38,920 nucleotides of DNA from Sphingomonadales bacterium (GTDB taxonomy: Bacteria; Pseudomonadota; Alphaproteobacteria; Sphingomonadales; Sphingomonadaceae), in the NCBI GenBank assembly GCA_025360285.1, contig JANYCM010000283.1:1-38920 (forward strand), in the 5' to 3' direction. Shown in pieces: positions 1 through 21,860 of this stretch (within the stretch, counting starts at the first letter, position 1; every line of letters starts with the position of its first letter). Under the pieces are notes generated by a model that was given only the letters and a program-made list of their open reading frames with translations, was not told the origin of the DNA and searched no databases. The position numbers and the translations under genes were made by a program.

Positions 1-291
1 GATTTCAATGTGCTGGCGGAGAAATCGCGCTGGGCGCGCATCAAGTCGGCGATCACCGGGGCGCTGCTGGGGCCAATCTACGCCTTTTCGCGGGCCTTCA
101 TGCCGATTCTGCCGCTGGCCGGCCTGTTGCACGTCACCCGAGATGCCCAGGTGCGCGATATCTTGTTGCGGCCTGATGATTTCCGCACGCCCTTTGGTCC
201 TGAAATGGCCGAACTGTCAGGAGCGCAACCTTCCTGCTTGGTCTTGATGGCGCCGAACATGACCGGCTGCACGCCATCTTGCAGCAGGTGA
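1..291 (+). CDS. N-terminal fragment of cytochrome P450 (5' end outside window), frame 1; appears to belong to the next ORF but is separated by a frameshift near 219-230
   Basis: Frame 1 is open from base 1: DFNVLAEKSRWARIKSAITGALLGPIYAF...VTRDAQVRDILLRPDDFRTPFGPEMAELSG, typical P450 N-terminal region; continuation FLLGLDGAEHDRLHAILQQV is found in frame 3 from ~228. Confidence 0.7.
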   Translation, partial: DFNVLAEKSRWARIKSAITGALLGPIYAFSRAFMPILPLAGLLHVTRDAQVRDILLRPDDFRTPFGPEMAELSGAQPSCLVLMAPNMTGCTPSCSR

Positions 292-3200
292 TCCGGCGGG
301 ACGATGGCGCGCTGATCGCCGGGCTTTCGACGCGTTTTGCTGGGGCGCTGCTGGAAAACAGCGCCGGGCGGATCGATGTGGTTGGAGATCTGTTGAAGCG
401 CGTGCCGGCCGAAATCTGCCTGCGCTATTTCGGGCTGAAATTTGATGATGTCGATGCGCTCGGCGACTGGACAATGGCCATCTCGGCGCTGTTGTTCGGC
501 GATCCCTATGGCGTGCCCGAAACCCGCGCGCTGGCGCTGAATGGCACGCGGCGGCTGCGCTTTGTCATCGATGATGCGCTGGCGCGCACGCAATTGCTGT
601 GCCGGCAGGGCAAGCTGCCCGCAGAGGGCGAGACGCTGATCGAACGGCTGGTGCTTCTGCAGCAGCAAGGCGCGGTCACCGATGCTGAAATCCGCGCCAT
701 TCTCGTCGGCCTGGCGACGGGCTTCATCCCGACCAACACACTGGCGGCGACGCGGATGTTGCAGGTGTTGCTCGATCGGCCCGAGGCAATGGCAATGGCG
801 CGGGCGGCGGCGCTCGCCGACGATCTGCCCACTATGCGCCGGATCGTGCTGGAGGCCGGCCGGCTGAGCCCGGCGCTGTCGCCCGGCCAATGGCGTTACT
901 GCCCGCAGGACACCAGCGTGATGGTCGATGGGCGGGCCAAGACCATCAAGGCGGGGTCAACGCTGATCGTTTCGACCATGTCGGCGATGCGCGATCGCCG
1001 CGCCGTGACGGAACCCAAACGTTTCTGGCCGGATCGTACCGGCGCCGATGGTCAATGGCAGGAACCCGATCTGGTGTTTGGCATCGGGCCCCACACCTGC
1101 ATGGGCAAGCATCTGGCGATCGAACAGATTACCGCGCTGTTCACGCTGCTGTTGAAAACACCGGACTTGCAGGTGGCCAGGGGCAAGGCTGGCCGGATGC
1201 AGTGGACAGGGCCGTTCCCGCGCCACCTTATCATGACATTCGCCACCCCGGCGGCGGAACAGTCGATGTTCCTGATCATCGCTCGCGCGGCGCCTGGCGT
1301 GACAAAGGCGGCGATCGACGCCCAACTCGCTGCATTGGGCAATCCCGCCGGCGCCGCCATGCGTGCGGCACTGGATGCCACCGGCATTGTGCATTTTTCA
1401 TCGCTTGCCAGCATCGAACATGAAGCCGGGGTCGATATCGTCTGGGAATTGAGCGTTGACGGTACGCAAGCCGCGGCCGTCGCCCTGTTGGCGCGGGAAA
1501 CGGCAGCGCTGCTGACGCCGATCTGGGCACAATGCGGCTTTGATAAGGCCGGCGATCTGACAACCTTCCTTGCCGACCATATCGTCGATCTACACGGCAA
1601 GCCCTGGGGAGCGAACGGCCTCAACTATAATGGCCTTGCCGAATTCCCGGTCGCGGCGGTGGCCAGGCAGGCGCGGTTTGCCAGCTTTGTCGAACGTGTG
1701 CTGGCCGATTTCCTGACCAGCGAAGCCGCGCGAGGCAGCCATGCCATGCTGGCGCTGACCTATGTGCGGCGCATCCTCAGCCAGGACCGCAGCCTGGCGC
1801 TGACCGCGACACCGTCACAGCGTGCGCTGTTGCAGGAAGCCGCCGACGAGCAGTTTGACGGCTTTCGCCTGAAGCCGACGGCCGCCGAACTGAAACTCGC
1901 TGACTTCCGCCCGAAAACCTATCTTGGCACGCTGATGGCGTTTCTGGCGTCGCGCGAAGGGTTGATCGTCACGGTCCCGGCGCTGGCGCTGCTGGCGTGG
2001 TTCTGTTGGGTATTTGCCAGCCATGATCCCAGCGCCGGGCTGTTGTGGCGCTACACCGGCACCGGCCTGCGCGCGCTGCTGGCGACCATTATAGTGATGA
2101 TCATCCCGCCGGTCCTGTTCTTCCTGCTCATCCGCCGCGCCGAAAAGCGCGATTGGATCGATCCGGCCCAGGCGCCGCTCGATCATATCGCCGCCATCGC
2201 CCGGATGGAGGATGCCCCCGGCTTTGCGCAGAACCATATATTGGCGCTGGGCGAGATGAAGCCCGGTTTGTTGCGCGCCTTCGCTCATGCCTTTGCGCTG
2301 TGGGCCAACCGGATGATCATCGCGTTTTTTTACCGGCCCGGCTTCATTATCAACATGGGCACCATCCATTATGCGCGCTGGTGGCGGGTGCCGGGGACCA
2401 ACAAGGCGGCATTTTATTCCAACTTCGACGGCAGTTGGGAAAATTACCTCGAAGACTTCATCACCCGCACCCATTGGGGCCAGACCGCGGTGTGGAGCAA
2501 TTGGCAGGGCTTTCCTGAAACGCGTTACCTTGCCTTTCTGGGTGCCGAACAGGGCGATAATTTCAAGCGCTGGGTGCGCCTGCATCAACAGATCTTGCCG
2601 TTCTGGTACAGCCGCTTTCCGGCACTGACCACTGATCAGATCCGTAACAATGCGCTGATCCACAGCGGCGTTGCCCGGGCCCGATCGAACAGCGAGGCCG
2701 AGGAGTGGTTGCGCTGTTTCGGATCAATGCCGCGCGTCGATAACCGCATCGAAACTGACGAAATCCAGGCGGTGGTGTTCAGCGGCCTTAAAAAGCTGGC
2801 CTTTTCCACCTGCCTGGTGCTGCAACTACCCAGAGCCGAGGCACTGGGCGAATGGCTGGGCTGGATCAGGGGCACCACCCTGGCGCTCGACAGCGATGAG
2901 GCCAGCGATAGCGGGACGATGCTGGGCGGCCTGCTGGCGCAAGGGGTCATAGTGCCGAATTATGGCCATGACGGCACGGTCAATGGCTACAGCCTGGCGC
3001 ATTCGCTCACCCTGACTTTCGGTGATCGCCCGCTGGTCGGCGATGCGTCGGAGTATGATACAGCGCCGCAGCCGGTCGATACGTTGGACGGCGATAGCGA
3101 TCCGGTCGTGCTGGGCAAGTCCGACGCGCGTAATGCCACGCGGCGCGCGGTGTTTCTTGGCTGTTCGGCCGCCGGCCTCGGGCAATTCCCGGTGCCCAAT

Positions 3201-4529
3201 GCCGAACCCGACGCACTGTTGCAGGGCTTTCCCTACCCGTTCCGGCTTGGCATGCACCAGCGCGGCCGGACATTGGGTGATCTTGGCCCGCAGGATGCCG
3301 CCCAGTGGCGCTGGCACGATGGCACTGCCGAAGCGATTCTGTTTGTCTATGCCGAAACGCCGGATGATCTGGCCTTTGCGGCGCAGGTTCACCGCAGCCT
3401 GGTTGAAAACCATGGCGGCACGGTCATCGCCCAGACCGATTGCGCCCCCGCCGATATGGCCCGGCCGGATTTTGAACATTTCGGTTATCGCGATGGCATT
3501 TCGCAACCAGTGATCCGCGGCACCCAGCGATCGACACGCGATGTGCCGGCGCGTGATCTGTTGGAACCCGGTGAATTCATTCTGGGCTACAAGGACGGCC
3601 AGGGCTTTTTCCCGCCCAGCCCCTTGTTGCCGGCCGAAGCCGATCTGGCACTCGAACTGCCGATCCTGTCGGATGGCGATTTCGGCCGTTTTCCGGATTT
3701 TGGTGACAAGAGCCTGGGTGCCGCCCCGCGCGATTTCGGCCGCAACGGTGCCTTCATCGTCATCCGCGAGCTGGTGCAGGATGTTGACGGGTTTGAGGCT
3801 TTTACCGCGCGCAAGGCTGCCGAACTGCTCGGTGACGCCCCTGGCGCTAGCCAGACGGCATATCGCGACCTGTACAAGCTGATCGGGCAGTTCCCGGACA
3901 AGGATTGGATCAAGGCCAAGCTCATGGGGCGCTGGCCGAACGGCCGGCCGCTGATCGGCAATCCCGTCAACCGGGACTCCGCCGCGCCTGGCGATCCTGA
4001 CTGTCTTGCCGCCGAGACCGACAATGATTTCACCTATGGCAGCGATGATCCGCAGGGGCTGGCCTGCCCCTTTGGCGCCCATATCCGCCGCAGTAATCCG
4101 CGCGACAGCAAACAGCCAGGTGATGCCAAGGAACAGATCATCACCAACCGCCACCGCCTGTTGCGGCGCGGCCGGGCCTATGTGCGCCAATCAGCTGACG
4201 GCACCACCGAAAAGGGCCTCGTGTTTGCCGCCGTGTGCGCCGATCTGGAGCGCCAGTTCGAATTCGTCCAGCAGGCCTGGGCCAATGCTTCCAGCTTTCA
4301 TGGCCTGACCAACGAGCCTGATCCGATCTTTGGCGCCGATTGCCCTGATCCGGTAACTAGTGCGACGATGCCGCGTGATTTCACCATCCCGACCCCGGCC
4401 GGTCCGATCAAGCTCAATGGCATGCAAAGTTTTGTAACCGTGAAAGCCGGCGGCTATTTCTTCCTGCCCAGCCGCTCGGCACTCACCTGGCTGACCGATG
4501 CGGCGCTGCACGCGGCAGCGGCCCGATGA
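279..4529 (+). CDS. Cytochrome P450 - two-TM linker - DyP-type peroxidase fusion protein
   Basis: P450: ExxR-type EAGR, heme loop FGIGPHTCMG (~1077-1106). Hydrophobic pair ~1930-2130. C-terminal DyP: GYRDGISQP (GxxDG motif, ~3483) and AHIRRSNPRD with proximal His (~4080). ORF-track start is TTG at 279; the coding frame is open further upstream to ~219. Confidence 0.88.
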   Translation: MQQVIRRDDGALIAGLSTRFAGALLENSAGRIDVVGDLLKRVPAEICLRYFGLKFDDVDALGDWTMAISALLFGDPYGVPETRALALNGTRRLRFVIDDALARTQLLCRQGKLPAEGETLIERLVLLQQQGAVTDAEIRAILVGLATGFIPTNTLAATRMLQVLLDRPEAMAMARAAALADDLPTMRRIVLEAGRLSPALSPGQWRYCPQDTSVMVDGRAKTIKAGSTLIVSTMSAMRDRRAVTEPKRFWPDRTGADGQWQEPDLVFGIGPHTCMGKHLAIEQITALFTLLLKTPDLQVARGKAGRMQWTGPFPRHLIMTFATPAAEQSMFLIIARAAPGVTKAAIDAQLAALGNPAGAAMRAALDATGIVHFSSLASIEHEAGVDIVWELSVDGTQAAAVALLARETAALLTPIWAQCGFDKAGDLTTFLADHIVDLHGKPWGANGLNYNGLAEFPVAAVARQARFASFVERVLADFLTSEAARGSHAMLALTYVRRILSQDRSLALTATPSQRALLQEAADEQFDGFRLKPTAAELKLADFRPKTYLGTLMAFLASREGLIVTVPALALLAWFCWVFASHDPSAGLLWRYTGTGLRALLATIIVMIIPPVLFFLLIRRAEKRDWIDPAQAPLDHIAAIARMEDAPGFAQNHILALGEMKPGLLRAFAHAFALWANRMIIAFFYRPGFIINMGTIHYARWWRVPGTNKAAFYSNFDGSWENYLEDFITRTHWGQTAVWSNWQGFPETRYLAFLGAEQGDNFKRWVRLHQQILPFWYSRFPALTTDQIRNNALIHSGVARARSNSEAEEWLRCFGSMPRVDNRIETDEIQAVVFSGLKKLAFSTCLVLQLPRAEALGEWLGWIRGTTLALDSDEASDSGTMLGGLLAQGVIVPNYGHDGTVNGYSLAHSLTLTFGDRPLVGDASEYDTAPQPVDTLDGDSDPVVLGKSDARNATRRAVFLGCSAAGLGQFPVPNAEPDALLQGFPYPFRLGMHQRGRTLGDLGPQDAAQWRWHDGTAEAILFVYAETPDDLAFAAQVHRSLVENHGGTVIAQTDCAPADMARPDFEHFGYRDGISQPVIRGTQRSTRDVPARDLLEPGEFILGYKDGQGFFPPSPLLPAEADLALELPILSDGDFGRFPDFGDKSLGAAPRDFGRNGAFIVIRELVQDVDGFEAFTARKAAELLGDAPGASQTAYRDLYKLIGQFPDKDWIKAKLMGRWPNGRPLIGNPVNRDSAAPGDPDCLAAETDNDFTYGSDDPQGLACPFGAHIRRSNPRDSKQPGDAKEQIITNRHRLLRRGRAYVRQSADGTTEKGLVFAAVCADLERQFEFVQQAWANASSFHGLTNEPDPIFGADCPDPVTSATMPRDFTIPTPAGPIKLNGMQSFVTVKAGGYFFLPSRSALTWLTDAALHAAAAR

Positions 4530-5215
4530 GCGCCGACGATGACGAACTGGCAATGCTGTTGCCCTTTTACGTCAACAGGACATTGGGACCGGCGGACGCG
4601 GCACGTGTCGAAGTCGCCTTGGCACGATCGTCAGAGCTTCGGGCTGAACTGTCGATAATTCATGATCTGGCACAAAAACTTAAAGCAGGGGGCAGGGAAG
4701 TGACCATTCAGCAGGAACCGGACGACCATCGGCTGGCGGCCGTTCTCGGCCGGATTGATGACAAGCCAGCGGCGGTGGTCGCTGCCCCGCCTGCCCGCCC
4801 CGGCCTCGGCAAGCTGCTGGCGTTTCTCAATCCGCAGCGCTGGCACCCGGCCGTTGCCTTGTCGCTGATGCTGGCGGTGGGCGGGCAGACGGTGTTCATC
4901 GGCAATCTGGCGGCGACGAAGCGCAGCAACAGCCAGGAGATTGCCAGCCTCAACAAACAGGTCGGTGATCTTCAGTACGCGCTCGCCTCCGGGCCGGAAG
5001 GGGTTCACCCCGGCAATGTCGTGGTGCAGTTGCGCCCTGATGCGGGCTGGGCGGCCGTTGCGGCGTTGCTCGGCAAGGAAGGCCTGACGATCGTCGGCGG
5101 GCCAAGCGATGGCACGCTCACCCTGTCGTCGGACGCCAAGGGGGCGGCGCTGCAAGCGCTGATCACCCGGCTGCGCGCCTCGCCGCTGGTGACGGCTGCG
5201 GATAAGGCCGCATGA
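4526..5215 (+). CDS. Anti-sigma-factor-like single-pass membrane protein lacking zinc ligands
   Basis: N-terminal LLPFYVNRTLGPADAARVEVALARSSELRAEL resembles anti-sigma domains (LPWYVNGTL..EERARVEAHL); one TM segment (AVALSLMLAVGGQTVFIGNL); 4-nt ATGA overlaps with both neighbours; no Cys in the protein. Confidence 0.65.
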   Translation: MSADDDELAMLLPFYVNRTLGPADAARVEVALARSSELRAELSIIHDLAQKLKAGGREVTIQQEPDDHRLAAVLGRIDDKPAAVVAAPPARPGLGKLLAFLNPQRWHPAVALSLMLAVGGQTVFIGNLAATKRSNSQEIASLNKQVGDLQYALASGPEGVHPGNVVVQLRPDAGWAAVAALLGKEGLTIVGGPSDGTLTLSSDAKGAALQALITRLRASPLVTAADKAA

Positions 5216-6480
5216 AGCGGGTTATCACCGCCGGCGTGGCGGCGCTGCTTGCTACGGCGGCTTTGGCGCAGGCGGGGCCCAACGGGCAAGCAGCACCAAG
5301 GAGCGGAAACACCGCCGCTGGCATCGGCATCGGTATCGGCATTGGCGTCGCGCTGGGCGCCTTGAAGAAACTGAAAGGTGCGGCGCCTGCGGTGCCGACG
5401 CTGGAAATGCGCGACGCTGTCATTGCCGATTATCTGCCCGGTCAGATCATCTTCCTGATGGCGCCGGGCGCGGCGGGCGCCGATCGTGTGGCCCGCGCTG
5501 CCAAAGTCGTCATCATCGAAACCGCGCTGCTGGACGAGGCCGGGCTGGTGATGGTCGTCGCCCAATTGGCGCCCGGGGACAGCGTGCCGGCGGTCAAGGC
5601 CAGGCTGGAGGCGCAGCGCGGCGTCCTGTGGGCGCAGCCTGATTACCAGTTTCAATTGCTCGGCCAGAGCTTTCCGAAACGCTTTGCCCTTCATGCCATT
5701 CCCGAAAAACAACCGACGGTGTCGGGCGCAATCGTGATGATCGATGCGCCGGTCGATCTTGGCCACCCCAATCTCGCCGGCGTGCTGGTCACCCAGAGCA
5801 GTTTCGGTGTTGACCCGGTGCCCGCCGTACATGGCACGGTCGTTGCGGCGCTGCTGGTTGGCACCGGCGCCTATCCGGGGACGGCGCAGGGGGCATCTCT
5901 GACCAGCCTCGCCGCCTTCGGGCCGGCGGCCCAAGGAACGGCGAATGGCGCGTCGCTATCGCGCACATCATATCTCGCCAAGGCGATGAACGAGGCGTCG
6001 CGGCTGCGGCCTGATGTGCTCAACCTATCGTTCGGCGGCCCGGAAGACCGGCTGCTCGGGGTGATGCTTGATACGATCCACAAGAATGGCGTGTGTGTAT
6101 CGGCGGCGGCGGGCAATGCCGGTCCGACGGGCCATGTGCTGTTTCCCGCCACCCATCCGGCCAGCCTGGCGGTGACAGCGGTCGATGAAAATCTGCGTGG
6201 GTATCAATTCGCTTCGCAGGGTGATCGGGTCGATGTCGCCGGCGTCGGCGTCGGGCTGAATGCGGCGGTGCCGGGCGGCCGGCGCGCCGTCTCGGGCACC
6301 AGCTTCGCCACGGCTGTCATCTCCGGCGCGCTGCTCCGCATGCCGGCCTGCCACGGCGGGCGTGACCCTGACGCGATGAAGGCCCAGGTCGCGGCGGCGG
6401 CGAAGGATTTGGGCGTGCCGGGCCGCGATTCCGTGTTCGGGGCAGGGCTGTTTCGGCTTACCGCGGCGAAGAAAAACTGA
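5212..6480 (+). CDS. Exported S8 family (subtilisin-like) serine peptidase
   Basis: Signal peptide MKRVITAGVAALLATAALAQA; catalytic motifs VMIDAPVDLGHPNL (Asp), VHGTVVAALLVG (His), SGTSFATAVISGAL (Ser), oxyanion AAAGNAGP. Confidence 0.88.
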   Translation: MKRVITAGVAALLATAALAQAGPNGQAAPRSGNTAAGIGIGIGIGVALGALKKLKGAAPAVPTLEMRDAVIADYLPGQIIFLMAPGAAGADRVARAAKVVIIETALLDEAGLVMVVAQLAPGDSVPAVKARLEAQRGVLWAQPDYQFQLLGQSFPKRFALHAIPEKQPTVSGAIVMIDAPVDLGHPNLAGVLVTQSSFGVDPVPAVHGTVVAALLVGTGAYPGTAQGASLTSLAAFGPAAQGTANGASLSRTSYLAKAMNEASRLRPDVLNLSFGGPEDRLLGVMLDTIHKNGVCVSAAAGNAGPTGHVLFPATHPASLAVTAVDENLRGYQFASQGDRVDVAGVGVGLNAAVPGGRRAVSGTSFATAVISGALLRMPACHGGRDPDAMKAQVAAAAKDLGVPGRDSVFGAGLFRLTAAKKN

Positions 6481-6565
6481 CGGCTGATTGAACCATTGCT
6501 CGCTGCGAAACGACTGGGATTGTCTGCTCATGATGACGCAGATTTTCTTAAATTCGGAGATGGCA

Positions 6566-7297
6566 ATGATGATCACCACAGTGCGTTTCGGTTTCAATTC
6601 GCTGCTGTTGGCGGCAAGTATCTTCTCAACGGCGGCCCTGGCGCAGGATGCAATCAGGCCGCTGCCCTCGCGCAATGAAATTGTGCTGCCATGCTGCCGC
6701 TGCATCGATGGCAAAGTCGCGGCGATCGACGTCAGCACCGGCACGGCGCCCTGGCAGGTCAACAGCAGTATACCGGGCGCGACCGGCAGCTTCACTCCCG
6801 GTGCGATCAGCGTTCCGCATCCAGCCTGGACGTCCACGCCGGCACTCGGTTCGGCGAAATGGCTGCAGCCTTCGACCTCGACCACCATGCAGAATTTCCA
6901 GAACGGCTTCGCCACCTACACGCTGAAGATCCGCGTGCAGCAATGCACCATCCCGCAAAAGGTGATTATTTCCGGCAAGCTGGCAGGGGACGACGTCGCT
7001 TTTGCCTATATTGATAACCCCAGCTCGCCTCCCAGCACCACCACGATAAACAGCGGTGGCGGGGCCAATTTCCCGCTGGCGGGAATCAAGTCGATCAATG
7101 GCGCCCTCGGCACCGGGCCGTTTACAGCGCCCGGCGTCTATACCTTGCGCGTCGTAATGCAAAATACCGGTCAGGGCCCCGCGGCGATAATCCTCAACGG
7201 ACAGATCACCAGCGTCTGCAAGGACCGCTATGCGCCGACCGACACACGGCCGATCGACACGCGCGCGGCGACACATATCGAGCCTGTCTCGCGCTGA
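6566..7297 (+). CDS. Secreted protein of unknown function with CCRC motif
   Basis: Start chosen at ATG 6566 with GGAG upstream; signal peptide MMITTVRFGFNSLLLAASIFSTAALAQ; mature start with EIVLPCCRCIDGKVAAIDVSTGTAPWQV. Confidence 0.6.
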   Translation: MMITTVRFGFNSLLLAASIFSTAALAQDAIRPLPSRNEIVLPCCRCIDGKVAAIDVSTGTAPWQVNSSIPGATGSFTPGAISVPHPAWTSTPALGSAKWLQPSTSTTMQNFQNGFATYTLKIRVQQCTIPQKVIISGKLAGDDVAFAYIDNPSSPPSTTTINSGGGANFPLAGIKSINGALGTGPFTAPGVYTLRVVMQNTGQGPAAIILNGQITSVCKDRYAPTDTRPIDTRAATHIEPVSR

Positions 7298-7361
7298 AGC
7301 CGGGCGTTCTGCCGTCGCCGAAATGATGTACTTGTCTGGCGGCCGCACGTCTTGATTGCAT

Positions 7362-7390
7362 TCCCTCCCCGTCGACGCTGCGGGGAGGGA
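7362..7390. terminator. 10-bp perfect hairpin downstream of 6566-7297 CDS, candidate terminator
   Basis: TCCCTCCCCG-TCGACGCTG-CGGGGAGGGA; no clear U-tract. Confidence 0.4.
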
Positions 7391-7682
7391 GCCATTTCAA
7401 GCTTACCGCAATCGAGTCTGGGGGGTCTGGAGCCAGGCCGACGGCGGAATTTACCGCTGAGGAGCTTGGGCTGTCCTACACAGGCTGTCTGTGCTATCAA
7501 TTCGCCCGTCGGCTCTTTGACATCGCAAATCCGCAGAAGGCGCCAACACTTTCGAATTACTGACAAATCCTACACCAACAAATCCTGGACAAGAAATTCG
7601 TCCAAAAGTCCGTCACCTGGGATCTGTGTGACTTTTGGGACTTTCGGTAGCTTGCACCACCGCCCGGCGGAGCGTGAATGCG

Positions 7683-8579
7683 CTATGCCTCGCCCAGAAA
7701 GCCGCGTAATTCGGCGATAAAGTCAGCCGTGCGGTCATGGTGCACCCAATGGCCGGCGTTCTGGTACAGCGACACCCGCGCCGTTTTGAACAGCGCCAGC
7801 CGGCCATCAACTGCCGGGTTTGAAGCCCAGCTTTCGGCGCCATAGACCAGCAGGGTGGGGCACGTGATGCGACCCCACAGGCCCTCCAGCTCCTCATGGG
7901 TGATGTCCACCGAACTGAACGAGCGGACATAATTGTCGAATTTCCAGCTGTAGCTGCCGTCTTCATTCTGCAGCATGCCATGGATCGTCAGGTGGCGGGC
8001 CTGTTCCGGGTTCAGATGGCGGTTTTCGGCCTGCATCCGCGCCAGCGCCTCATCCATGCTGGCATAGCGTTTCGGCAGGCGGTGGCTGAGCGCCCGCTGT
8101 TCATCGATCCAGCCACGCAACCGGTTCGCGGCGCTCACCTCGCCGCGTTCGGCGCGCTGTTTGGGGGAGGGGCCAAGGCCTTCGATGGCGACCAATTTGG
8201 CGACATTTTCCGGGTAGAGCCCAGTGTAGCGCAGCGCGATATTGCCGCCCAGCGAATGCGCGACGATGGTCAGTGGTGCCAGTTTTTGCTGATGGATCAG
8301 TTGCGCCAGATCATAGACGAAGGCCGCCATCGAGTAATTGCCATCAGGCGACCAGGCGCTGTCACCATGGCCGCGCAGATCGGGGGCGATAACATGCCAG
8401 TCGCGGGCCAGATCGGCCGCTACCCAGTCCCAGTTTCGGCAATGGTCGCGGCCGCCGTGGAGCAGCAACAGGGGCGGTGCGTCGGCATTGCCCCAATCGA
8501 CATAATGCAGCCGCAGGCGCTGCGAAATGAAGCTGTTGGAGGTGGGGCCTGCCAGGGCAGGCGGACGGGGCAGGACCAT
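7683..8579 (-). CDS. Alpha/beta fold hydrolase
   Basis: LLLLHGGRDHCRNWDWVAADLARDWHVIAPDLRGHGDS, nucleophile elbow AHSLGGNIA, C-terminal GHWVHHD. Confidence 0.85.
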   Translation of the reverse strand: MVLPRPPALAGPTSNSFISQRLRLHYVDWGNADAPPLLLLHGGRDHCRNWDWVAADLARDWHVIAPDLRGHGDSAWSPDGNYSMAAFVYDLAQLIHQQKLAPLTIVAHSLGGNIALRYTGLYPENVAKLVAIEGLGPSPKQRAERGEVSAANRLRGWIDEQRALSHRLPKRYASMDEALARMQAENRHLNPEQARHLTIHGMLQNEDGSYSWKFDNYVRSFSSVDITHEELEGLWGRITCPTLLVYGAESWASNPAVDGRLALFKTARVSLYQNAGHWVHHDRTADFIAELRGFLGEA

Positions 8580-8581
8580 GG

Positions 8582-9487
8582 TCAGGCCGGCCCCGGCCCG
8601 ACACCATTGGCCTTGAAATGTGCCAGCAGCCGCGCCCAGCCATCGGCCGCTGCCTTTTCATTGTAACTGGGACGATAATCGGCGTGAAAACCATGTTCGG
8701 CATCGGGATAGACGATGATCTCGCTCTTGCTGCCGGCAGCCTTCAGGGCGGCGCGCATGGCCTCGACATCGCTCAGGGGAATCCCCCTATCGAGCCCGCC
8801 ATAAAGTCCGAGCACCGGCGCGTTGAGTTCGCCGGCCAGTTCCAGCGGATATTTGCGCTCATCCGTAACCGGCTCGCCCGGTTTGGGCGGTGCCAGCCGG
8901 CCATACCAGGCCGTGCCGGCCTTCAACAGCGCGAAACGGGCCACAGCCATCCAGGTGACAGCGCCACCCCAGCAGAAGCCGGTGATGGCGAGGCGCTTCT
9001 TGTCAACAAAGCCCTGGGCTGTCAGCCAATCGAGCGTAGTGCCGACATCGCCCATTACCTGTTCATTCTTGGCGGCACCGACAATGCGGAAGATTTCCTT
9101 GAAATCCATGGTCTTGGCGAGCGTCCGATCCGGATCATTGCGGTAGAAGAATTCCGGCGCGATGGCGACATAGCCGGCGCGGGCGAAGCGGCGGCAGATG
9201 TCACGGATATATTCGTGCAGCCCAAAGACTTCATTGACGACAATCACCGCGGGATAGCGCCCCTTGCCCGCCGGCCGCGCCATATAGCCGGGCAGGCCGC
9301 CGGTCATGACGACGCTGTCGATGGCCAGGCCGTCGGTGCTGGTAGTGATTGGTGCGGCATTGGCACCAACGGCGATGGCGGCGTAGCCGGCGGCGACCAG
9401 CCCGGCCAGGCTGCGGCGTGACAGCAGCAGGTCCTCGGGCGGCGTGCCTTCAGGGCGGGTCAAGTTGGTCATGCCGGAAACTCCCAA
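8582..9487 (-). CDS. Dienelactone hydrolase family protein with N-terminal twin-Arg-like signal
   Basis: RRSLAGLVAAGYAAIAVGANA; GYVAIAPEFFYR; GFCWGGAVTW; DAEHGFHADYRPSYN. Confidence 0.85.
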   Translation of the reverse strand: MGVSGMTNLTRPEGTPPEDLLLSRRSLAGLVAAGYAAIAVGANAAPITTSTDGLAIDSVVMTGGLPGYMARPAGKGRYPAVIVVNEVFGLHEYIRDICRRFARAGYVAIAPEFFYRNDPDRTLAKTMDFKEIFRIVGAAKNEQVMGDVGTTLDWLTAQGFVDKKRLAITGFCWGGAVTWMAVARFALLKAGTAWYGRLAPPKPGEPVTDERKYPLELAGELNAPVLGLYGGLDRGIPLSDVEAMRAALKAAGSKSEIIVYPDAEHGFHADYRPSYNEKAAADGWARLLAHFKANGVGPGPA

Positions 9488-16472: not shown

Positions 16473-17852
16473 TCAGATTACCTCGATTCGCAAGGGCAGG
16501 CCATCCTTGGGTTTGGGGATCGGGAACATGTTGAATTCGCCGCGATACGAATCCGACAGCACGATGCGGTTTTCGGCGAGCAAATGGAAGAAGAAGGATT
16601 TGACCTGCATATAGGCAAAGTGCAGCCCCAGGCACATATGGCCACCGCCGCCGAACGGCACCCAGGCATATTTGTGCCGGCCCTTGGAGTTTTCGGGGGT
16701 GAAGCGCAGCGGATCGAAACGTTCCGGATCGGGCCAGACATCGGGCAGGCGGTGGGTCAGCATCGGGTTGATGCCGACGTGGCTGCCGGCCGGGATGACA
16801 TGATTCATGAAAACGAATGACTTGAGCGCCCGGCGCGGCATGGACGGCACCGGCGGGATCAGCCGCAGCGATTCCTTGAAGACCATTTCCAGCGTTTCCA
16901 TCTCGGCGAGCGCCGCATAGGTCAGTTCGCCGCCGGTCCTCGCCTTTATCGCCAGGATTTCGGCGCGCACCTTGTCCTGCCATTCGGGATATTGGCCGAG
17001 AAAATGCACCGTCGAGCTGATCGATGAGGTCGTCGTGTCATGCGCCGCCATCATCAGGAAGTTCATGTGATCGATGATGGCCTGGTCGCTGAGCGGCACG
17101 CCTTCATCATCGGTGGTGTTGCAGATCTGGGTGAAGATGTCGTCGCCGGCCTGGCCGAGGCGCTTGGGGATTTCGCGGCCGAAGAATTCGCACATGAATT
17201 CACGGCCCTTGACGCCGCGCCGCATGGCGGTGAGCGGCAGCGGTTTGCGGACCACGGCGACCGAGGCCAGCACCATATCGACAAAGGCCTTGTTGATCTT
17301 CTTGGCATCCGGGCCCCAGGGCACGCCGAGGAAAGATGCCGCGGCAAGATCCAGCGTCAAGGCCTTGATGGCAGGGTAGAATTTGAATTCCGGCTCGTTC
17401 GGCCAGGCGGCGATGCCGCGCGCGATACCGCCGTTCAGCTCGCCGAGATAATGCTGCATCGGTTCGGTCTTGAAGGCGACCGACAGGGCCTTGCGGTGGA
17501 TGCGATGTTCATCGAAATCCATCAGCATCAGGCCATGCGGGAACAGGTTTTCGAGGACAGGATTCCAGCCGAGCGAGGACGAGAAAATCTTGTCCTTGTT
17601 GAACAGCACCAGTTCATTGGCTTCCGGGCCGATCATCGACACGCCCCAGCCGCCGAAATCCTGGCGGCGGAACACCCGGCCATAATCATCATGCATCTGG
17701 TGGCTGCGGCCCAGCGGGTCCTGAAGGAATTTGATGGTGCGCAGCACCGGGATGCGCGCCGGCGTCATGCCGGGCAGGTGCGCCAGATCGGCGAATGTCG
17801 GTTCGGGCAGATCGGCGGGGATGAAGGCCTGGGCCTTGCTGTGAGCATTCAT
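16473..17852 (-). CDS. Cytochrome P450 (canonical)
   Basis: I-helix AAHDTTTSS, ExxR FKESLRLIPP, heme loop FGGGGHMCLG. Start moved to MNAHSKAQAF. Confidence 0.92.
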   Translation of the reverse strand: MNAHSKAQAFIPADLPEPTFADLAHLPGMTPARIPVLRTIKFLQDPLGRSHQMHDDYGRVFRRQDFGGWGVSMIGPEANELVLFNKDKIFSSSLGWNPVLENLFPHGLMLMDFDEHRIHRKALSVAFKTEPMQHYLGELNGGIARGIAAWPNEPEFKFYPAIKALTLDLAAASFLGVPWGPDAKKINKAFVDMVLASVAVVRKPLPLTAMRRGVKGREFMCEFFGREIPKRLGQAGDDIFTQICNTTDDEGVPLSDQAIIDHMNFLMMAAHDTTTSSISSTVHFLGQYPEWQDKVRAEILAIKARTGGELTYAALAEMETLEMVFKESLRLIPPVPSMPRRALKSFVFMNHVIPAGSHVGINPMLTHRLPDVWPDPERFDPLRFTPENSKGRHKYAWVPFGGGGHMCLGLHFAYMQVKSFFFHLLAENRIVLSDSYRGEFNMFPIPKPKDGLPLRIEVI

Positions 17853-17979
17853 GCGTGATCTCCTGTATGCGGAGCATTGATACGCAAATTTGCCGGGCGG
17901 AGCAACGGGGCGGCCCAGCAATAAGGCGAGACAAAGTGTCGGGCTTTCGCTGGCCTGAAAGCCCGCTTATGACGGCGGC

Positions 17980-19140
17980 GTGGACTTTGATATCATCCTT
18001 GCCGGCGGCGGCCTCGCCAATGGCCTTATTGCCTTGCGCCTGGCCCAGTTGCGCCCCGAGGTGCGGGTGGCGATCATCGAGGCCGGGCCGGTGCTGGGCG
18101 GCAACCACACCTGGTCGTCGTTCACCAATGATCTGACCGCCGCCCAGCGCGACTGGACGGCGCCGTTGTTCCAGTATCGCTGGGACGAATATGCGGTGCG
18201 GTTTCCGGCGCACAGCCGCACCCTGGCGGCGGGTTATGGCAGTTGCACGTCGGAATTGCTCGCGGCCGCTGTTACCGGGGCCTTGCCGCCGGGGCACATC
18301 CTTACCGGCATGCCGGTGGTGGCGCTGAGCCCGACAAGCGTGACCTTGGCCGACCAGCGCATGCTGACGGCGGCGGCGGTGATCGATGGCCGCGGCCAGG
18401 GGCCGACCAAGGCGCTCGACCTCAGGTGGCAGAAATTCCTGGGGCAGGAGATCGAACTGGCCGAGCCGCATGGGCTGACCGGCCCGGTGATCATGGACGC
18501 GACGGTGCCGCAGCGGGATGGCTATCGTTTTGTCTACACGCTGCCGTTCGGCCCGCGGCATGTGCTGATCGAGGATACCTATTACAGTGATGGCAGCGAC
18601 CTGTCGCCCGATCTGCTGCGCAGCCATCTCGCCGATTATGCCGTGTCGCAGGGCTGGACGATCACCAAGATCATCCGCGAGGAACATGGCATTCTGCCGC
18701 TCGGCATCGGCGGCAATATCCAGGCGTTCTGGGACGAGGGTGAGGCGGGTGTGCCGCGGGTGGGCCTGCGCGCCGGCATGTTCCACCCGGTGACGGGCTA
18801 TAGTTTCCCCGATGCGGTGGCGATCGCCGATCTCGTGGCCGGGTTGCCGGTGCTCGATGCCGCGACAATCTATCGCGCCGTCCGTGACCATAGTGTCAGT
18901 GCCTGGAAGGCGCGCGGCATGTACCGGCTGCTCAACCGCATGTTGTTTCTCGCCGCCTTGCCCGATGAGCGCTATCGTGTTCTGGAACGCTTCTATGAGC
19001 ATGACGAGGCGCTGGTCGGGCGCTTCTATGCCGCAAGGCCGGAATTGCGCGACTGGATGCAGATCTTGAGCGGCAAGCCACCGATCCCGGTGCTGCGCGC
19101 GATGACGACATTGTTGAAATATGAATTGGGCAGAGCGTGA
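17980..19140 (+). CDS. crtY: Lycopene beta-cyclase
   Basis: GTG start; [56 protein letters not shown]; followed by crtI and crtB. Confidence 0.92.
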
Positions 19141-19208
19141 CGACGGCGGCCGATCCTGCGACACATTCGGCTTTGAAGTCCTCCGGCGAACCGCGTAACG
19201 GCGGCGTC

Positions 19209-20846
19209 ATGAAACAGCAGCGAAAAACCGCCATAGTGATTGGCGCCGGCATTGGTGGCATCGCCTGTGCCATGCGCTTGCAGAGCCTGGGCTTTGATAC
19301 CCGCATCGTCGAGGCGCTCGATTCCCCCGGTGGCCGGGCCTATGTCAGGCGGGCGGAAGGCTTCACCTTTGACATGGGGCCGACGGTGCTGACCGTGCCG
19401 CACCTGATCGAAGAGCTGTTTTCGCTGGAGCAGGACCAGGCGATGCTGGGCGAGCCGGATTTCCCGGCGCATGTGCTGGGCGACGACAAGCGGATCTTGT
19501 CCGGGATCAGTGGCGGGCCGAACACCAGCCGCTATGTGGAGATCATTCCGATCCTGCCGTTTTACCGCATCTATTTCGATGACGGGACGTTCTTTGATTA
19601 TGATGCCGATCCGGTGCGGGTGCGGGCGCAGATCGCCCGGTTGGCGCCCGAGGATTTGCAGGGCTATGAGGATTTTCACGAAGCGGCGCGGGCGATCTTC
19701 AACCGCGGCTTCCTCGAACTCGGCTACACCTATTTCGGCAATGTCGGCCAGATGCTGGGTGTGGTCCCCGACCTGTTGAAGCTGGGCGCGGTGCAGCCGC
19801 TGTTTTCGCTGATCAAGAAATATTTCAAATCGGACAAGATGCGGCAGGTGTTCAGCTTTGAACCCCTGCTGGTCGGCGGCAACCCGATGAAGGTGCCGGC
19901 GATCTATGCGATGATCCACTTTGTTGAAAAGACCTGGGGGATCCATTTCGCGCGCGGCGGTACCGGCGCCCTGGTGTCGGCGATGGTGCGCAAGCTGGAG
20001 GAAATGGGCGGGGTTCTGCAACTGAACGCCAAGGTCGCCTCGATCGATGTGGTCAAGCGCGGCGGCAAGCGCGTGGCGACGGGCGTGACGCTGACATCGG
20101 GCGAGGTGATTGCGGCGGACGTGGTGGTTTCCAACGCCGATTATGCCACGACCTATATGCGGCTGATCCACAAGGCACATCGCCGGATCAACCGCGATTT
20201 TGTGGTGAAATTCCGCAAGCAGTCGATGTCGCTGATGGTGATCTATTTCGGCTACAAGAAAGCCGAGGGCGACCCGGATTTGCAGCACCACAACATCATC
20301 CTGGGGCCGCGTTACGAGGAACTGCTGACCGATATTTTCGAGCGCAAGATATTGGGGCCGGACTTTTCGCAATATCTGCATATCCCGACGCTGACTGACC
20401 CCAGCCTGGCGCCGGAAGGCCATCATGCGGCCTACACGCTGATCCCGGTGCCCAACAACCAGAGCGACCTGGATTGGAGCAAGATCGGCGAAGGCTTCAA
20501 GGATGTCGTGCTGACCTTCCTGGAAGAGCGCGGCTATATCCCAAATCTGAAGGAACGGCTGGTTTATCAAAGCTTTGTGACGCCAGATTACTTCGAACAG
20601 ACGCTGGGTTCCTATCTTGGCAATGGTTTTGGGGTCGAGCCGGTGCTGACCCAGACGGCGTTTTTCCGGCCGCATAACCGCAGCGAGGACGTGTCGAACC
20701 TCTATCTGGTGGGCCAGAGCACCCAGCCCGGTGGCGGCACGCCATCGGTGATGATGTCGGCCAAGATGACCGTGCGCGAGATTGCCCGGGATTTCGGCAT
20801 CCCCGCTTCGGTGGTCAACGGCGTGCCGGGCCGGGCTGCCGCCTGA
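19209..20846 (+). CDS. crtI: Phytoene desaturase
   Basis: [40 protein letters not shown]-terminal [22 protein letters not shown]. The alternative GTG at 19137 overlaps the crtY stop. Confidence 0.95.
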
Positions 20847-20924
20847 CGTTCACGCCGGCCCCCGGGATTTCGCCGGCGGCAGCTTGCGCTTGACCCCTTG
20901 GTTGCCGCGGTGGAGAGGGGTGGC

Positions 20925-21860
20925 ATGACCGACGTCCTCCGCCATGCCCAGGCCGCCATCGCCCGCGGTTCCAAAAGCTTTGCGATGGCGTCGCAATTGT
21001 TCGATCCCGTCACCCGTGACCGCGCGATGCTGCTTTATGCCTGGTGCCGGCATACTGATGATGTGATCGATGGCCAGATATTGGGGCAGGGCCGTAATGA
21101 CGACAGGCGCCCGCCCGCCGAGCGCCTCGCCGAGGTTGAGCGCCTGACCGAGAGGGCGCTGGCCGCGCAGCCGACGGGGGACCCGGCCTATGAAGCGCTG
21201 GCGCAGGTGGTGCGCGAAACCGGCATGCCGGCGCGGTATCCGCGTGATCTGGTGCATGGTTTCCGTATCGACATGGAGGAACGGGCGTTCCTGACCTTCG
21301 ATGATACTTTGGCCTATTGCTATCATGTCGCCGGCTGTGTCGGCGTGATGATGGCCATCGTCATGGGGGTGGCGCCCGATGACCGCGCCACGCTCGATCG
21401 TGCCTGCGATCTCGGCATGGCGTTTCAGCTCAACAATATTGCTCGCGACGTGATGGAGGATGCCGCCAATGGCCGGCGCTATATTCCCGATGACTGGCTG
21501 GCCAGCGTCAATCTGGAGCCGCGCAGCTTCGCCTTTCCGCCCAATCGCCGGCAATTGTCACGGCTGGTGACGCGGTTGGTCAATGCCGCCGAGGAATATG
21601 AAGCATCGGCGCGTTTCGGCACCCCGGCGCTGTCGTGGCGGGCGGCCTGGGCGGTGCTGGCGGCGGCACGCATCTATGGCGGCATCGGCCGCAAGGTGCG
21701 CGATGCCGGGCCAGAGGGGCTCGATACCCGGATGAGCACGACCAAGCCGCAGAAATTGCAGGCGGTGGCGGCGGCGCTGGGGGAAACGCTGCTGCGCCGG
21801 CAACGCTGGCCGGCGCCGGGGCCAGCGCGGGTTGGCCTGTGGACCATGCCGCCCGGCTGA
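20925..21860 (+). CDS. crtB: Phytoene synthase
   Basis: ARGSKSFAMASQLF, YAWCRHTDDVIDGQ, LAYCYHVAGCVGVMMAIVMG, LGMAFQLNNIARDVMEDAANGRRYIP. Confidence 0.95.
   Translation: MTDVLRHAQAAIARGSKSFAMASQLFDPVTRDRAMLLYAWCRHTDDVIDGQILGQGRNDDRRPPAERLAEVERLTERALAAQPTGDPAYEALAQVVRETGMPARYPRDLVHGFRIDMEERAFLTFDDTLAYCYHVAGCVGVMMAIVMGVAPDDRATLDRACDLGMAFQLNNIARDVMEDAANGRRYIPDDWLASVNLEPRSFAFPPNRRQLSRLVTRLVNAAEEYEASARFGTPALSWRAAWAVLAAARIYGGIGRKVRDAGPEGLDTRMSTTKPQKLQAVAAALGETLLRRQRWPAPGPARVGLWTMPPG

Follow-up and report, generated by a model that had tools for sequence, protein, structure and literature searches.

A giant membrane-anchored cytochrome P450–DyP fusion protein widespread in soil and water bacteria

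A giant membrane-anchored protein, in which a cytochrome P450 is fused to a DyP-type peroxidase, is widespread in many soil and water bacteria, and one copy of it lies at the beginning of the window analyzed here, a stretch of 38,920 nucleotides of Sphingomonadales DNA (contig C133 of a draft genome of 412 contigs that is 82% complete). The modules of the protein follow one another in a fixed order, P450 – domain A – transmembrane (TM) hairpin – domain B – DyP, which is found in finished plasmids as well as in 59 of 86 related loci, and this architecture is near certain. Judged from the sequences, the fusion is both real and old. Both heme domains keep their ligands, the fused P450s have lost the acid of the I-helix, and the same modules occur in distant relatives as neighboring genes. 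As the full explanation that accounts best for these features, we propose a cytoplasm-facing, membrane-anchored, peroxide-using tandem oxidation enzyme, a proposal to which we give about an even chance of being right.

Architecture of the fusion protein

The P450 domain, apart from its N-terminal end, occupies positions 204–1250 of the window (+ strand, frame 3), and is matched by PF00067 at E=1.1e-11 and by the family profile at 9e-150; the P450 alignment profile also finds EryK-type structures in the PDB at E=1.7e-30. The features of the P450 superfamily are present, namely a Cys heme loop (FxxGx[RH]xCxG), the K-helix ExxR and the P450 fold. The heme loop FGIGPHTCMG lies at 1077–1106 (+; Cys ligand at 1098–1100), and its Cys, Gly and His are found in all 60 fused rows of the alignment, as is the Arg of the K-helix motif EAGR (852–863, +), the Glu of which is kept in 59 of the 60. 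The fold was modeled on the nearest complete relative (L052, 67% identical over B–DyP), not on the truncated P450 of the window, and the AlphaFold model (pLDDT 93) gave 1652 PDB matches at E<=0.001, with TM-scores of up to 0.85 on P450s of the PDB. In the I-helix, the window reads G-F-I-P-T (720–734, +), with Pro (729–731) at the acid position and the Thr (732–734) retained. G-x-x-P-T is present in 59 of 59 readable fused P450s, so that Pro replaces the proton-delivering acid, Thr is retained, and the acid–alcohol pair canonical for O2/NAD(P)H monooxygenases is absent from every one of them. The register was set against canonical P450s of related genomes (AGNETT or GGVDTT); some pairwise alignments by HMMER move it by one position, and with either choice there is no acid. 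Val, Ile, Ala, Thr and similar residues precede the Pro in the fused P450s, and Arg never does in the main counts. Most unfused partner P450s also have Pro (GAIPTT, GGPPQP), and one clade of them (L093, L103, L120, L124, L128 and L130) keeps the acid–Thr pair as GAIDTT.

The C-terminal part of the protein (2760–4526, +) is a DyP peroxidase domain resembling class C/D. It is reached by TIGR01413 of NCBIfam at E=7.5e-25, below the curated cut-off, and by the DyP C-terminal domain PF20628 of Pfam barely above the cut-off, and the DyP alignment profile matches PDB entry 8re3 at E=1.6e-72, as well as DyP2 and Alr1585. Along with this match over the domain, the residues that mark a DyP are in place: the catalytic Asp (3492–3494) of the GxxDG motif GYRDG (3483–3497, +), found in 88 of 90 members, the proximal heme His in AHIRRSNPRD (4080–4082, +), also found in 88 of 90, and the Arg cluster NRHRLLRRGRAY (4146–4181, +), which includes the distal Arg and the arginines of which are conserved in 87–88 of 90. 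The initial annotation had located the heme loop at 1077, hydrophobic segments at about 1930–2130, GYRDG at 3483 and AHIRRSNPRD near 4080, and all of these landmarks lie where it put them; its view that both heme centers keep their ligand motifs extends to the family, and the profile matches given above speak for two genuine heme domains. The two-heme, membrane-associated enzyme that it predicted is supported by the intact ligand sets and by a conserved hairpin.

Domain A (1257–1781, +; profile 1e-63, model pLDDT ~95) and domain B (2202–2828, +) are uncharacterized, and neither matched any Pfam family or PDB sequence. Both are ferredoxin-like in the model; A has invariant His, Glu and Asp residues, and B, with the motifs TIHYARW and SNFDGSWENYLEDFI in the window and TIHFARW and SNYDGSWESYLEDFITKA at family level, is conserved more strongly than any other part of the protein. 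They are joined by a TM hairpin of two helices (1962–2132, +), placed at 1962–2018 and 2076–2132 by hydropathy and at 1962–2024 and 2040–2147 by AlphaFold, and the number of hydrophobic segments between A and B is exactly two in 67 of 88 members. The density of Lys and Arg exceeds that of the loop on the N-terminal side in 60 of 66 members and on the C-terminal side in 63 of 66, as in the positive-inside pattern, and from this enrichment outside the hairpin both heme domains are predicted to be cytoplasmic. In the AlphaFold model, computed from 60 sequences with four rows of the plasmid collection left out of the alignment (pLDDT 90, pTM 0.86), A and B have an identical order of strands and helices, beta-alpha-beta-beta-alpha-beta, with two long helices between them. 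This order fits that of dimeric alpha+beta-barrel proteins, and the sole meaningful relative of A–TM–B in Foldseek was Abx(+)O (9ltx), with a probability of 0.99 and a TM-score of 0.52 on the target, but E=0.06. A and B are probably internal duplicates, because the B profile matches the A region of distant members (L140, L141, L143) at about 1e-7 to 1e-8, though the two profiles give a weak match when compared directly (probability 4%, E=0.01). The idea that A/B might be another heme barrel, akin to DyP, was rejected, as the B and DyP profiles gave no match, and a fold search among viral proteins yielded no usable match. In Reyranella-type and Hellea members (L062, L065, L066, L068, L069, L071, L078, L129), a polytopic membrane region of about four to eight helices replaces the A–B hairpin; for the Reyranella forms, its interpretation as a heme-b or ferric-reductase domain was dropped, since there was no match in Pfam and no histidine pattern by eye.

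The window copy itself is incomplete. The frame from 204 to 4526 (+) is open over 1441 codons and comprises P450, two hydrophobic helices and DyP with both heme-ligand motifs intact. Positions 1–4529, initially reported as one continuous frame, are nevertheless not all in this one: positions 1 to about 222 are in another frame, and, as the contig begins inside the fusion gene, the true start is off the contig edge and outside the window. This N-terminal part of the P450 (1–222, +; frame 1, ~74 codons, translated as DFNVLAEKSRW...PEMAELSG) is split from the main frame (frame 3) by a one-base shift near 222 (222–230, +), where the window has one base less than sister contig C245 of the same assembly (G000; locus L038). 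When window positions 1–432 are compared with L038 by blastn, the gap falls at 222/223, L038 being one base longer, and identity is 92% over 432 positions, a single mismatch falling within the first 131 bases. On C245 (4449–5000) the N-terminal part of the P450 is open and unshifted, the protein starts with MPQVKYFAG, and the contig terminates in the P450 N-terminus of the fusion. The two contig ends, nearly identical and then diverging to ~92%, suggest that the assembly graph forked between two strain variants, which are probably both present in this assembly, and C245 thus probably holds the true upstream neighbor of the window. A strain variant and an assembly error would both fit the frameshift, and the window copy could be a broken allele.

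Distribution, unfused counterparts and neighboring genes

Nine plasmid records were recovered by tblastn with at least 80% of the protein covered, at 32–38% identity. They include the copy on pNL2 of Novosphingobium aromaticivorans (1443 aa), which bears the name Dyp-type peroxidase domain-containing protein, and those of Pararhizobium qamdonense and Sulfitobacter pontiacus, both named cytochrome P450. These homologues, in finished replicons, align from end to end, far more than chance would give. Scanning genomes with the B domain gave 80 loci, mostly of Alphaproteobacteria, and the P450 is in the same frame in 57 of 81 frames that hold A, B and DyP. On a tree of 86 rows, 59 fused, 12 split and 15 P450-less forms are strongly clustered, with 9 changes of label versus 25 in shuffles. 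Four of the split or P450-less labels (L053, L069, L041, L064) look like frameshifts or contig edges, L107 and L129 also carry a weak P450 match, and the remaining split and P450-less forms fall mostly into one group on the tree. Many A–B–DyP proteins of Rhizobium and Ensifer have no P450 beside them, which suggests that A–B–DyP works without a P450 there. In Rhizobium, Sinorhizobium and Ensifer loci L035, L037, L106 and L117, the P450-less A–B–DyP genes adjoin endonuclease genes; L035 has a trypsin-like-peptidase/DNA-RNA endonuclease fusion and a gene of the endonuclease/exonuclease/phosphatase type, and both have counterparts in L037. Membership of the fusion in anti-phage defense was considered and set aside, as PADLOC gave no match for it.

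In distant relatives, the same modules are encoded by separate adjacent genes. In a phylum sample of 399 genomes, 26 have B, and DyP adjoins B in all 20 loci examined. A P450 gene lies within 109 bp on the same strand in 7 of 17 unfused B/DyP loci, for which the probability is about 1e-5 given an assumed chance rate of 5% per locus, and four-gene rows of B, A-like, DyP and P450 genes are found in L162–L165, and in L163 and L164 the A-like gene includes a TM hairpin; A-likeness in these rows was judged partly by eye, with hmmsearch matches to B of 1e-5 for L165 and L166. Both the P450 adjacency and the four-gene rows argue that the parts belong together. The place of the P450 is taken by a catalase-like gene in three loci (one over the Pfam cut-off, one weak and one by likeness only), by a tyrosinase in one locus and by a GMC oxidoreductase in one. 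As the tree is unrooted, either the fusion amounts to an operon condensed into one protein, or the operons descend from it by splitting. In L153 (5118–11300), A–B and DyP genes stand in a row with genes for a GMC oxidoreductase, an alpha/beta hydrolase and a ~190-aa protein, a likely homologue of which also precedes B in L047.

A TPR protein gene is located directly upstream of the fusion in 58 loci, including C245. Of the proteins scanned, 15 of 52 have a guanylate/adenylate cyclase domain, and the others have a SARP/OmpR-like N-terminus, which Pfam detects in few. In sphingomonads an ECF sigma gene is found upstream, and anti-sigma-like and S8 protease genes downstream as in the window, in which the anti-sigma factor-like gene (4526–5212, +; NCBIfam antisigma E=5.3e-07, below the cut-off) overlaps the stop of the fusion and is followed by the S8 subtilisin-like protease gene (5212–6477, +; PF00082 E=2.2e-16); the former family is conserved here in 9 sphingomonad loci, and the latter is at the equivalent place in 8. 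In Rhizobiales a Crp/Fnr gene comes after the fusion, and an apparently conserved rhizobial neighbor cluster (cluster 4) was discarded, as it consists mostly of antisense frames of a Crp/Fnr gene. No redox-partner gene, whether for a ferredoxin or a reductase, recurs among the neighbors of the fusion. These regulators, together with domains A and B and the unfused operon relatives, go beyond what the initial annotation had described.

Several other P450 and DyP loci were seen. A second P450 of the window (16476–17921, −), with the canonical I-helix AAHDTT, adjoins a carotenoid cluster of lycopene cyclase, phytoene desaturase-like oxidoreductase and phytoene synthase genes (17980–21857, +). In L043 (G019:C44), a P450 is fused, in a 940-aa frame at 6344–9163, to part of another P450 and to a carbon-nitrogen hydrolase, and the frame is preceded by a SARP-TPR regulator of the same kind as at the fusion loci. 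L045 (5435–9535) and L048 (5193–8747), from the same genus as the window, encode otherwise uncharacterized proteins of 1185–1367 aa with DyP domains in mid-protein, flanked by apparent adenylate cyclase and Crp/Fnr genes.

Proposed mechanism and competing explanations

According to the proposal, one membrane-anchored protein would unite four modules that elsewhere are separate neighboring genes. A and B would form an intramolecular pair at the membrane surface that keeps the two heme sites together, and would probably present or shield a hydrophobic substrate. The DyP domain could generate one-electron oxidized products with H2O2 or a hydroperoxide, and the P450 would itself use peroxide or hydroperoxide, in the manner of a peroxygenase or a hydroperoxide isomerase, instead of working as an efficient O2/NAD(P)H monooxygenase. 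DyP would supply or remove the oxidant or act next on the product, and a lipophilic compound would be oxidized in successive steps by the two domains together. Expression would probably be controlled by the upstream TPR regulator, and in sphingomonads also by the set of ECF sigma factor, anti-sigma factor and protease.

Peroxide chemistry is suggested by the Pro at the acid position in all fused P450s and in most unfused partners, together with the retained catalytic residues of DyP. The replacement of the P450 by a catalase-like gene in three loci, or by a GMC oxidoreductase in one, points in the same direction, and GMC oxidoreductases often make H2O2. The lack of a recurrent redox-partner gene among the neighbors also agrees with it but counts for little, because bacterial P450s often rely on partners whose genes lie at other sites in the genome. 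The loss of the I-helix acid fits hydroperoxide or lipid chemistry and falls short of proof. The Thr retained in the fused P450s would allow a slower monooxygenase cycle, and the clade of unfused partners with an acid–Thr pair indicates that a standard P450 can also serve in this system. A more specific version, in which the protein represents a new class of self-contained two-heme oxidase with chemically coupled peroxidase and P450, one heme making or activating a (lipid) peroxide and the other consuming it at the membrane surface, with A/B as a new substrate-holding barrel, is put forward tentatively, as a possibility that we would not expect to hold. If true, bacteria would have evolved, independently, a counterpart to the Ppo/prostaglandin-type tandem heme enzymes.

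The P450 may instead be a standard monooxygenase with a built-in scavenger, which would be served by unlinked ferredoxins and, with the acid missing, leak H2O2 that DyP destroys or re-uses. DyPs use and consume H2O2, Thr is kept in 59 of 59 fused P450s, and some unfused partners keep the acid, all of which would suit such an enzyme. Disruption of the acid–alcohol pair is known to end normal O2 coupling and to divert the reaction to H2O2 (PMC9112060), which likewise favors it and counts for the peroxide proposal as well. However, no ferredoxin or reductase recurs beside the fusion gene, a scavenging partner does not call for an invariant Pro, and the catalase-like replacement of the P450 in three loci is left unexplained; we consider this explanation rather unlikely. 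It is also conceivable, and in our judgment distinctly unlikely, that the domains belong to one pathway or stress response with no chemical succession between them, and that fusion fixes only their stoichiometry and placement at the membrane. The variety of partners beside B/DyP (P450, catalase-like protein, tyrosinase, GMC oxidoreductase or none) and the rhizobial A–B–DyP that stands without a P450 are in line with such loose co-expression, but the P450 is fused in a large and stable group with a fixed order, and the Pro tracks the association. Finally, an assembly artefact or pseudogene, whether misjoined genes or a dead gene, for which the fragmented draft of 412 contigs, the start at a contig edge and the one-base shift might speak, is highly improbable, and is refuted at the family level: finished plasmids and dozens of genomes encode the protein at full length, its ligands are conserved, and its N-terminal frame is intact on C245. 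On this point the fusion noted at the outset is upheld.

Comparison with known systems

A search confined to the open-access literature yielded no description of a P450–DyP fusion. The family as such is not new, as public databases have for years listed the fusion by the name of one of its halves, "cytochrome P450" or "Dyp-type peroxidase domain-containing protein"; only its recognition appears to be new. The other half goes unnamed because the DyP part is barely within range of the Pfam and NCBIfam models, and no model exists for A or B; the fusion thereby exposes an annotation blind spot. To our knowledge, the natural substrates of DyP peroxidases are mostly unknown, and a P450 partner would point to their role. 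The fusion may also offer a peroxide-driven biocatalyst.

The self-sufficient CYP102 and CYP116B share with the fusion a P450 as the N-terminal module, but their partner is an electron-supplying reductase, whereas here another heme enzyme takes that place, and Pfam and NCBIfam showed neither a flavin nor an iron-sulfur domain in the fusion. The DyPs of class C/D (8re3, DyP2 4g2c, Alr1585 5c2i) share the whole DyP domain with its GxxDG motif, proximal His and conserved Args, but are stand-alone proteins, whereas here the domain is fused to B, the membrane hairpin and a P450. For A–TM–B, the best meaningful fold match is with the dimeric alpha+beta-barrel proteins, such as Abx(+)O decarboxylase (9ltx); the function of the latter is not transferable to A/B, as the E-value of 0.06 is weak and sequence identity is 6%. 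The CYP152 fatty-acid peroxygenases (P450BSbeta, OleT) likewise have an altered acid–alcohol pair, peroxide use being a proposal in the case of the fusion. CYP152 has Arg-Pro in the I-helix in place of the acid and Thr, whereas the fused P450s have a hydrophobic or small residue, Pro and then Thr, so that they lack the CYP152 signature, and no CYP152 entry is among the best PDB sequence and fold matches listed.

In the Ppo enzymes of fungi, the P450 handles the hydroperoxide produced by the other domain. These linoleate diol synthases (CYP6001–CYP6005 fusions; PMC4420034, PMC4486971) likewise combine a heme peroxidase/dioxygenase and a P450 in one polypeptide, and the likeness suggested by the initial annotation holds as an analogy only. 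The Ppo peroxidase is N-terminal, eukaryotic and of the peroxidase-cyclooxygenase superfamily, and no A/B domains or TM hairpin have been described for it, whereas the bacterial protein has a C-terminal DyP; no An_peroxidase N-terminal to the P450 was found in it, only P450 and DyP families match, and the order is reversed. The order is shared by the oomycete CYP5619 fusions (PMC4486971, PMC5919972), with an N-terminal P450 and a C-terminal heme peroxidase/dioxygenase. Their peroxidase is not a DyP, and their heme loop is described as highly degenerate, whereas that of the bacterial fusion is intact. Fungi and oomycetes are the described sources of P450–peroxidase fusions, in which the peroxidase is of the cyclooxygenase type. 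A P450–DyP fusion widespread in bacteria, with unnamed membrane domains and a second heme site that is intact, would represent a separate origin of a tandem heme enzyme.
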